DNA of 43,188 nt, taken from contig JAFTCP010000066.1 of assembly GCA_017454625.1 (NCBI GenBank), forward strand, positions 1-43,188, written 5' to 3'. The notes beneath the pieces are model-generated. The model had not been told where the DNA came from. It saw nothing but the letters and a program-made list of their open reading frames with translations, and did no database searches. Source of the DNA: Synergistaceae bacterium (GTDB lineage Bacteria > Synergistota > Synergistia > Synergistales > Aminobacteriaceae). Shown one piece after another: positions 19,265-36,902 of this stretch (positions are counted from its first letter, which is position 1; each line of letters starts with the position of its first letter). Position numbers and translations under genes: made by a program.

Positions 19265-20464
19265 CTAAATTCCTGCCGCTTTACGTAACGCTTCGGCTCT
19301 GTCCGTTTTCTCCCAGCCTGGAAGTTCAGGCAAGTCAATTCTTCCCATATGGCCATATGCCGCGAGAGCTTTATACTGAGGCTTCCTCAAGTCCAAATCC
19401 CGGATTATTGCCGCAGGCCTGAAGTCAAAATATTCACGAAGAAGCTGAGAAATTTTCTCCTCGCTGATTTTTCCAGTCCCGAAAGTGTTTACGTTCAGTG
19501 AGACAGGCTCAGCAACTCCGATAGCGTAGGCAACCTGAATTTGACACTCGTCAGCAAGCCCAGCCGCAACAATATTCTTCGCCGCGTAACGTGTCATGTA
19601 AGCTCCGCTTCGGTCAACTTTCGTCGGGTCTTTCCCTGAGAATGCTCCGCCTCCGTGTGGAACCCATCCGCCGTAAGTGTCAACTATAATTTTTCGTCCA
19701 GTCAAGCCGGAATCCGCCGCAGGTCCGCCCTTAACAAATCTTCCGGTCGGATTAACAAAAATTCTCGTCGTGTCGTCAATCAATTCTGCAGGAACTATCG
19801 GAGTTATAACATGAGCGATTAAGTCCTCGCGTATTTTCTTCAGGCTTGTATCAGGAGCATGCTGTGTTGAAACTACGATCGTGTCAGCATGAACGGCTTT
19901 GCGGTTCTCGTAACGTAATGAAACCTGAGTTTTCCCGTCTGGACGTAAATATTTCAGTGTCCCGTCCTTGCGTACTTTTGTGAGCTGTCGGGCTAATGCG
20001 TGCGATAAAGCTATCGGCATCGGCATAAACTCCTTCGTCTCGTTCGTGGCGTAACCAAACATCATGCCTTGATCTCCCGCACCAATCTTCGCAACTTCAT
20101 CATCGCCCAAGTTCTGGCCTCGAACTTCGATAGCGTCGTCAACTCCCTGTGCAATATCGCCGGACTGTTCGTCAATCGCTGTAAAGACCGCGCAAGAATC
20201 TCCGTCAAAGCCGAATTTTGCTCTCGTGTAGCCTATCTCGTTAATCGTTGCACGTGCGATTTTCTGAATGTCGATTATTGCTTTGGTGCTGATTTCTCCG
20301 GCCGCAACGACAAAACCGGTCGACACCATAACTTCACAGGCAACTCGTCCCATAGGATCCTGCTCAAGAATTGCATCAAGTACAGCGTCCGAAATTTGAT
20401 CTGCAACTTTATCCGGATGTCCTTCGGTTACGGATTCCGACGAAAAAATGAATTTCTCTGACAT
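19265..20464 (-). CDS. metK: S-adenosylmethionine synthetase
   Basis: MetK makes SAM from methionine and ATP. The 399-residue protein is complete: [20 protein letters not shown] at the N-terminus, the MetK signature [12 protein letters not shown], and the phosphate loop [24 protein letters not shown] riboswitch and its terminator lie in the leader, so high SAM should shut expression down. SAM feeds the viperin and FkbM enzymes as well as general methylation. Confidence 0.97.
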
Positions 20465-28873: not shown

Positions 28874-28916
28874 TAATAATATTCCTGAAGAAAATTTTTA
28901 AGCTATTATATCAGAC

Positions 28917-29103
28917 ATGATTATATTAGTTTTAGGGCACATCACGAAATAGAAAAGGACTTGAAGGTTTTGCGGGTTCTCACAAGATTTACGATGACGA
29001 ATTGATTATACTGACATAATTATATTAGTTTCAGGGAGCATCACGAACCAGAAAGAGGCTTGAAGATTTTGCAGGTTCTCACAAAATTTATGATGATGAA
29101 TTG
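28917..29103 (+). repeat. Two decayed copies of the cobU 5' end
   Basis: cobU begins ATGATTATATTAGTTTCAGG (29104). The same sequence with changes starts at 28917 (ATGATTATATTAGTTTTAGG) and 29016 (ATAATTATATTAGTTTCAGG). Each copy continues through ATCACGAA, GAAAxxGxCTTGAAG, TTCTCACAA and ends GATGAATTGA. Periods are 99 and 88 bp. Both copies lack about 18 bases present in the gene and contain stops, so they are remnants and not functional genes. They share this deletion, so one copy arose from the other. Confidence 0.9.
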
Positions 29104-29643
29104 ATGATTATATTAGTTTCAGGAGCATCACGAAGCGGAAAAAGTTTATACGCCGAACGAAGACTTGAGGAGTTAACGAGTTTTCACAAGATTTATGTTG
29201 CTGTGTCGAAAGTTTATGATGACGAGATGATGAGACGAGTTCAGCTTCACAGGGCACGAAGGGAGCACAAGAACTTTATCACATTTGAGAAATATTCAGA
29301 CTTGGCCGGATTAATAATCCCAGAAAAAGCCAGCGTCTTAATCGAAAGTTTAACGGTTTGGGTCGCTAATGAAATCTTCACTGATGACGGCGTGAGAAGT
29401 TCTGAGGAAGTCTGCGAAAAGGTTTACGGTGATTTTCTCGTTCTCAAGTCAAAATGTGAGAATATTATTATCGTCAGTGATGATGTTTTCTCGGACGGGA
29501 TAATTTACGACGCTCTAACCGAAGAATATATCCGGACGCTCGCAAAGCTGACGTGTAAGATTGCGGCCGTCGCTGATGAAGTCGTCGAATGCTCGGCAGG
29601 ATTACCCGTTCACTATAAGATTTATGCATTCACTGTGAAATAA
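29104..29643 (+). CDS. cobU: Adenosylcobinamide kinase/guanylyltransferase
   Basis: CobU phosphorylates adenosylcobinamide and attaches GMP in assembly of the cobalamin lower loop. The 179-residue protein has the P-loop VSGASRSGKSLYAE, RVQLHRARREH with the GMP-accepting His, and LIESLTVWVANEIF. ATG 29104 is preferred over the TTG one codon earlier because the decayed copies begin at this ATG position. No clear Shine-Dalgarno is visible. Other cob genes are absent, so the gene is detached from its pathway here. Confidence 0.9.
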   Translation: MIILVSGASRSGKSLYAERRLEELTSFHKIYVAVSKVYDDEMMRRVQLHRARREHKNFITFEKYSDLAGLIIPEKASVLIESLTVWVANEIFTDDGVRSSEEVCEKVYGDFLVLKSKCENIIIVSDDVFSDGIIYDALTEEYIRTLAKLTCKIAAVADEVVECSAGLPVHYKIYAFTVK

Positions 29644-36081: not shown

Positions 36082-36198
36082 TGAAACGTGTATAAATGAA
36101 ATTATATCAAACAAGATTTATTATTATAATAATTAAGGCATCTTTGGTATTATTTACGGAATATTTTTATCATGAGTTATTTTGTGGGGAAAAACTTT

Positions 36199-36902
36199 AT
36201 GCATAACATAGCGATTTGTTCGGGAAATCCTGAGGAATTAACACAGCTTCAAAATATAATTGATGACTATGAAGAGTTCTCTAATGAAGATTTTACCGTG
36301 AAAGTTTTTCCGAGTTCTGAGGCATTAACTTTAGCTATGAAGAGTTACAGGCCGGATATTCTCGTGATTGACGCTGCCGGAGGGATTGAGACTGTGAGAA
36401 ATCTTCGAAGGGAAAATTACACGGGCGAGATTATTTTCACGGCCTCAAACGGTGAACACGCTCTTGAAGCATTTGACCTTGAAGCCCGGCAGTATTTCAT
36501 CAGACCGATTAACCCGCAAAAATTCTTCAGGACACTTGAGAAAATTATGCCGCCTAAAAAGTTTATCATCGTCAAGCAGCGAAGGAACATACGAAAAATT
36601 TTGTGTGATGAAATTCTTTACTGTGAGACTAACGGCAAGCATCAGGAGATTTACACGTTCAACGAGAAAATTACGGTGAGGATTACGGCTCGCGAAATGA
36701 AAAAATTAGCCCCCCCCCCCCTTACGGTAATTTTACCACCTTAGGTTCAGCATATTTACTTAACATCGAGAACATAATATCTCTTTCAGCTGACGAATGC
36801 AAAGTAATCTTCTCAGGAGGAAGGGAATTAATATTGTCGTGGAAAAAGTTTCAGGCTTTGAGAAGGGAACTCAAAAATTTTTACGGGCTTAGGAAAAAAT
36901 AA
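36199..36902 (+). pseudogene. LytTR response regulator, frameshifted at a C12 tract
   Basis: The first part encodes a receiver domain (starting MHNIAICSGNPEELTQL, phospho-Asp in ILVIDAAGG, and RQYFIRPINPQKF) and the first half of a LytTR DNA-binding domain (RNIRKILCDEILYCETNGKH). At 36710-36721 there are 12 consecutive C. Translation then leaves frame and stops at 36742-36744. The rest of LytTR is intact in another frame (YGNFTTLGSAYLLNIENIIS to YGLRKK, stop 36900-36902). Thirteen or ten C would restore one protein of about 234 residues. ATG 36199 follows GGGGA; ATG 36172 is an alternative. No histidine kinase is adjacent. Either a phase-variable switch or a sequencing error. Confidence 0.85.
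36710..36721 (+). repeat. Poly-C (C12) homopolymer inside a regulator gene
   Basis: Twelve C residues in a row in the middle of the LytTR domain, the longest homopolymer I noticed in the window. Tracts of this type mutate by slippage and act as on/off switches in host-associated bacteria. Confidence 0.9.

Follow-up and report, generated by a model that had tools for sequence, protein, structure and literature searches.

We describe a gene that very probably encodes a translationally phase-variable orphan response regulator of the LytTR type, and that would be one of many poly-C contingency loci spread across the genus, the majority of them flanked by a shared motif. The gene is located in a stretch of DNA of 43,188 bases, i.e. 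the window, from a genome (G000) whose host is probably an uncultured, gut-dwelling bacterium of the Synergistaceae. On the sequences compared here, phase variation is a better reading than a dead gene or a single error, because four of the five orthologues carry the tract, in truncated and in full-length states. The original prediction had spoken of a phase-variable global regulator: its first half is supported by the orthologues and by about 36 tracts across the genome in contingency genes, but the word "global" is not, as the gene looks like an orphan, with no kinase found among the neighbours scanned. The best-known cases of homopolymer phase variation come from a few pathogens; the present genus, of uncultured gut bacteria, appears to bear tens of switches throughout, one of them inside the DNA-binding domain of a regulator.

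The tract is a run of 12 C residues on the forward strand (36710-36721), the only run of C or G longer than six in the window, where 0.0005 runs of at least 12 are expected under a model of independent bases. It is situated inside an open reading frame of 190 aa (36172-36744), the stop codon of which (36742-36744) occurs 21 bases past the run. An in-frame ATG is found at 36172, and the alignment to four orthologues places the start of the gene at the ATG at 36202. The segment from 36202 to 36709 encodes the receiver domain and the first half of the LytTR domain, the segment 36722-36744 is the out-of-frame end of the truncated frame, and the second half of the LytTR domain is intact in another frame (36722-36902, stop codon included), which is open across 36720-36902. 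When the two parts are read through, with an X at the break, the protein matches the LytTR profile (PF04397) over positions 2-97 of 98 at 34.0 bits (cut-off 22.6), a match that the tail completes; neither piece of the gene alone matches this profile at E 0.001. The receiver is marginal: the read-through protein scores 30.2 bits against Response_reg (PF00072), exactly the cut-off, and the truncated frame alone scores 30.8 bits. The original prediction, made from the letters alone, is thus borne out in its claims of a C12 tract in a LytTR regulator gene, of its position inside the DNA-binding domain and of an intact downstream half; its arithmetic, by which 13 or 10 C residues restore the full protein, is right, and its bounds lie close to the gene, with a start (36199) three bases from the ATG and an end (36902) at the last base of the stop codon of the tail.

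Immediately after the tract lies the motif ttacgGTAATTTTACc (36722-36737, core 36727-36736), which is common to other tracts; the pattern GTAATTTTAC/GTAAAATTAC has its single site in the window at the C12 tract, and GTAATTTTAC itself occurs once, beside the tract. The tract is intragenic, with no match in the scan for -35/-10 boxes, and no kinase gene was found among the scanned neighbours; the gene looks like an orphan LytTR response regulator. Elsewhere, the window contains two short tandem duplications (28905-29105, 99 bp x 2.0, and 1538-1685, 77 bp x 1.9).

The search for the same gene in relatives covered 61 genomes, one per species and with the genome of the window included; close copies, by score, occur in five of them, every one in the same Synergistaceae genus. 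When named genomes were scanned with an alignment of the orthologues, four loci were found: two in metagenome assemblies labelled "uncultured Fretibacterium sp.", one in an "uncultured Synergistales bacterium" from red deer and one in a "Synergistaceae bacterium" from goat omasum. The tract is located at the same site in four of the five orthologues, two of which are truncated (the window copy and G030), one full-length (G010) and one followed by an abnormal join (G033); its length and the state of the gene vary between these four species (C12, C12, C9 and C10, respectively), a comparison of species and not of strains, nor of switching itself, in which the count of the window copy rests on a draft assembly. 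The G030 copy resembles that of the window, with an intact tail in another frame, and the G010 copy runs in frame for 233 aa, with both PF00072 (58.3 bits) and PF04397 above the cut-off. The fifth copy, in G001, is intact (245 aa) and has no tract; 507 aa FAD-binding proteins are found near both this gene and the gene of the window, which supports their orthology.

A gene in decay, with a frameshift fixed in the lineage and no way back, would also present truncated frames such as those of G000 and G030, and the weak receiver (30.2 bits, at the cut-off) and the replacement of the phosphoacceptor by Glu in G001 and by Gly in G033 point in the same direction. We nevertheless regard decay as highly improbable: the tails of both truncated copies have no stop codon before the natural end, that of the window completes the LytTR match, and the sole lesion is at the tract. 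Relatives of the window tail were found in G001 and G010, and the G030 relative was reached with the G010 tail as the query; the tails of G030 (off) and G010 (on) are 92.5% identical, with a dN/dS of 0.41 over 49 codons (first part: 0.18), which speaks against decay, although it is based on few changes. The aligned phosphoacceptor is Asp in G030 and G010, and the alignment has a gap there in the window protein; because of the Glu and Gly residues of G001 and G033, phosphorylation may be dispensable in this LytTR regulator.

The G033 copy deserves a separate description. On contig C29 of that genome, an inverted glycosyltransferase gene of the GT2 type adjoins the first half of the LytTR gene; the two meet at the C10 tract (about 19286-19295; L066/L156) and its motif, and the frame of the GT2 gene runs into that tract. 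The join is either an assembly chimera at shared sequence or a true rearrangement between tracts. A match on contig C139 (E 9.7e-4) was considered as the missing LytTR tail and set aside, as it looks like a separate small open reading frame behind promoter-like sequence.

The tract of the window is one of many. In the G000 assembly, a draft of 2.47 Mb in 182 contigs and 98.4% complete, the C9 pattern occurs at 104 overlapping places, corresponding to about 36 tracts; 35 of these, which account for 102 of the 104 places, were analysed, with one or two further tracts left out. Their lengths are 9 (three tracts), 10 (eight), 11 (17), 12 (five), 13 (one) and 15 (one), so that 35 tracts of at least 9 are observed against 3.3 expected in 2.47 Mb, and 24 of the 35 reach at least 11, against 0.15 expected. 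Long runs of A or T are not similarly enriched, the longest being 9 in the 226 kb examined. Runs of C10 are present in 36 of 37 genomes of the same genus, often in tens of places, and in 24 genomes of other families they occur in 0 to 13 places. The exception in the genus is G020, a genome of 1.8 Mb that is listed as 100% complete and has no C10 run. Loss of mismatch repair was considered as the cause of the tracts and rejected for MutS1: since mutS1 is present and intact in G000, loss of MutS is not the explanation of tract instability.

These counts also bear on the possibility that the gene is full-length in the cell and that the assembled tract has the wrong number of C residues. Homopolymers are where assemblies err, G000 is a fragmented draft of 182 contigs, and one of these (C2) starts with C15. 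However, three further assemblies, made from different samples, have the tract at the very same codons, and the 35 tracts share one kind of sequence context; an error could alter the count of the window copy, but would not create the tract family. We therefore consider a miscount very unlikely as the whole explanation, and an assembly error, which the original prediction had named as its possible undoing, is unlikely as the origin of the tract, given the three other assemblies.

The genes in or beside the G000 tracts include two LicD genes and glycosyltransferases of the types GT1, GT2, GT9, GT10, GT87 and GT92, together with a PEP-mutase/cytidylyltransferase protein, HsdS, a flagellin, pilin-like N_methyl proteins, a polysaccharide exporter, an MBOAT acyltransferase, amino acid permeases, and hybrid and GHKL kinases; others have no match. 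Like the LytTR gene, several are interrupted by their tract, for instance GT1, GT10, GT2 and the nucleotidyltransferase/PEP-mutase locus; in others, such as MBOAT, GT92 and the GHKL kinase, the frame is maintained. A C10 tract precedes the start of a flagellin gene of 902 aa by 58 bases (L057:3008-3017). On contig C134, next to L002, a GHKL-type histidine kinase (L058:2578-3900) has a C10 tract inside its open frame, and is accompanied by a regulator with a LytTR domain, the match of which is under the Pfam cut-off; the two form a second two-component pair, the kinase of which may, from its tract, be phase-variable too.

Slippage on long homopolymers is an established phenomenon, and ribosomes or RNA polymerase slipping on the C run could yield both products at once, with no switch. 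That the tract is conserved between species would agree with such a role; tracts that are intergenic or lie in promoter spacers, and tracts in many unrelated genes, fit slippage of the DNA better, and we hold transcriptional or ribosomal slippage to be most improbable.

The long tracts have a feature in common, namely a motif of the approximate form TAAGTAATTTTAC, of palindromic type, that lies a few bases 3' of the tract as read on the C strand, both at genes on either strand and between genes. An unsupervised search 3' of the C strand at 101 tracts from four genomes returned TAaGTAaTTTTaC with a log-likelihood of 302; C5-C7 runs in equal number gave 67, and shuffles gave 96-113. In G000, AAGTA is found within 22 bases 3' of 12 of the 35 tracts, where 0.5 would be expected, and at none of the 35 on the opposite strand; GTAWWWWTAC lies within the same distance at seven of the 35 (0.04 expected). 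By length of the run, the motif occurs at short runs of 3, 4, 5 and 6 C residues at the rate of the background (8%, 9%, 8% and 11% of 6676, 1272, 262 and 45 runs), at three of eight runs of 7 and at the one run of 8; at runs of 9, 10, 11, 12 and at least 13, it occurs in 42%, 83%, 70%, 75% and 54% (of 12, 30, 30, 16 and 13 runs), rates that are somewhat inflated and not wholly independent, as the consensus derives from these very tracts, of which some are orthologous between genomes. The long tracts are thus set apart by an adjacent motif, which at the ordinary short C runs of this DNA occurs no more often than background. A motif dispersed through the genome without tracts finds no support: a pattern of C5 plus the motif has 75 matches in G000, and seven of the 13 best (at most two mismatches) are sites of long tracts, all matches beyond these 13 having three mismatches.

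A simple reading of the motif is that it is a promoter -10 element, with the tracts as the spacers of sigma-70-type promoters. Among the loci scanned in six genomes (G000, G030, G010, G033, G031 and G032), 14 tract loci are indeed flanked by TTGACA-like and TATAAT-like hexamers, with at most one mismatch each, most of them 18-22 bases apart. As classed by an open-frame rule and not by annotation, however, 71 of the 101 tracts are coding, 56 of these in genes of the opposite strand, with the run of G on the coding strand. Counted as present with at least 8 of 13 letters right (null rate 7.5%), the motif occurs there (39 of 56) as often as between genes (22 of 30), compared with 9 of 15 for genes of the C strand; moreover, a perfect TATAAT lies within 24 bases of only five of the 30 intergenic tracts. 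As a general account of the motif, a promoter element is unlikely. At seven loci (L108, L120, L107, L146, L201, L209 and L223), C10-C12 tracts are located between TTGACA-like and TATAAT-like boxes 20-21 bases apart, and two of these, L108 (G030, C10) and L120 (G010, C11), look orthologous; these loci are likely to be phase-variable promoters, as judged from their layout.

Two further explanations of the motif were considered and rejected. A constraint on the amino acid sequence does not apply, since in 27 genes of the opposite strand the motif occupies all three codon phases (12, 11 and 4); because the motif is indifferent to both gene strand and codon phase, it is a feature at the level of the DNA. 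A mobile cassette of tract plus motif was rejected for two genes, as the tract-free orthologues of LytTR (G001) and MBOAT (G062) align over the tract site with no inserted segment; these two already hold a motif-like sequence, with 8 of 10 core letters by manual count.

The association was then compared with tracts of held-out species. At the 39 tracts of G031 and G032, the scores of a weight matrix trained elsewhere exceed those of random places (p 3e-10), and tAATTAC came out of an independent search, with a log-likelihood of 86 against 42-46 for shuffles; the orientation of the motif is not distinguished there (downstream at 16 of 39, as its reverse complement at 18 of 39), and the exact 11-mer is weakly enriched (2 of 21 in G031, p 0.03; 3 of 18 in G032, p 0.04). 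Among 30 loci out of 125 places, with tracts near locus ends and duplicates dropped, the motif accompanies 8 of 10 tracts of G022 (p 3e-11), 4 of 10 of G026 (p 0.0015) and 4 of 11 of G017 (p 0.054); at 15 tracts from other families of the order, no significant motif was found (p 0.1). From these tests, therefore, the association is genus-wide, with a drifting consensus, and weaker in the held-out species.

As for the mechanism, slipped-strand mispairing during replication would most likely change the length of the C tract inside the DNA-binding domain, reversibly within a population. One frame would give the full regulator and the others a receiver followed by a broken LytTR domain. The assembled copy corresponds to the truncated state; this form should not bind DNA, having lost the second half of the LytTR domain, and might still compete as a receiver. 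The long tracts may keep the motif for one of several reasons: it may ease tract formation or slippage, it may bind a factor, or it may reflect a local mutational bias. We also entertain, as a possible but rather doubtful extension, an addressed hypermutation in the genus, in which a DNA-binding factor would recognise the GTAAnnTTACg-like motif by the poly-C run and promote tract formation or changes of length, with MutS kept. The chosen sites would lie in genes of either strand and in promoters, and the LytTR tract would be one of them, so that the regulator, and hence its targets, would be under the same switch. If the motif does steer the formation of tracts or their rate of change, these contingency loci would be addressed by sequence and not merely repetitive.

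In the literature searched, conserved flanks of phase-variable tracts are not the subject of any report found by title, and the words "flanking", "motif" and "adjacent to" are absent from PMC2831843. Among the matches listed, no work on phase variation in Synergistetes or Synergistaceae was found by title; the parts of PMC3711429, on Synergistetes, that were consulted do not treat phase variation, and for LytTR proteins with homopolymeric phase variation, one candidate (PMC8545106) is unrelated in the parts consulted. The same searches returned no literature combining Fretibacterium with phase variation and no description of the tract-flanking motif.

The LytTR gene has the architecture of the AgrA-type response regulators, a receiver followed by a LytTR domain; it differs from them in that no adjacent kinase was seen, in that the tract lies inside the LytTR domain, and in the degenerate receiver of some relatives. 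Helicobacter, Campylobacter and Neisseria have poly-G/poly-C phasomes, in which promoters and genes for surface structures or sugar transfer carry long tracts by the dozen, and the same holds for the tracts described here. The differences are the other phylum, the intact mutS1 and the shared flanking motif, none being mentioned for the 29 poly-G/poly-C tracts of H. canadensis in the portions of PMC2823697 consulted. A known precedent among two-component genes, for what the original prediction took to be rare in response regulators, is bvgS of Bordetella pertussis (PMC1891110): a C6/C7 tract is located in its coding region and a change in the length of the tract truncates the product, as would be the case here; BvgS, however, is a sensor kinase of a cultured pathogen with proven switching, whereas the present gene is a LytTR response regulator with tracts of C9-C12, one of a motif-flanked set. 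A close parallel to the motif comes from the fim promoters of Bordetella, where a C-stretch is located beside a conserved "fim box" and expression depends on the length of the stretch (PMC1891110); in both systems a C tract adjoins a conserved motif, but the fim box belongs to the promoters of one gene family, whereas the motif described here accompanies tracts inside unrelated genes, on either strand.
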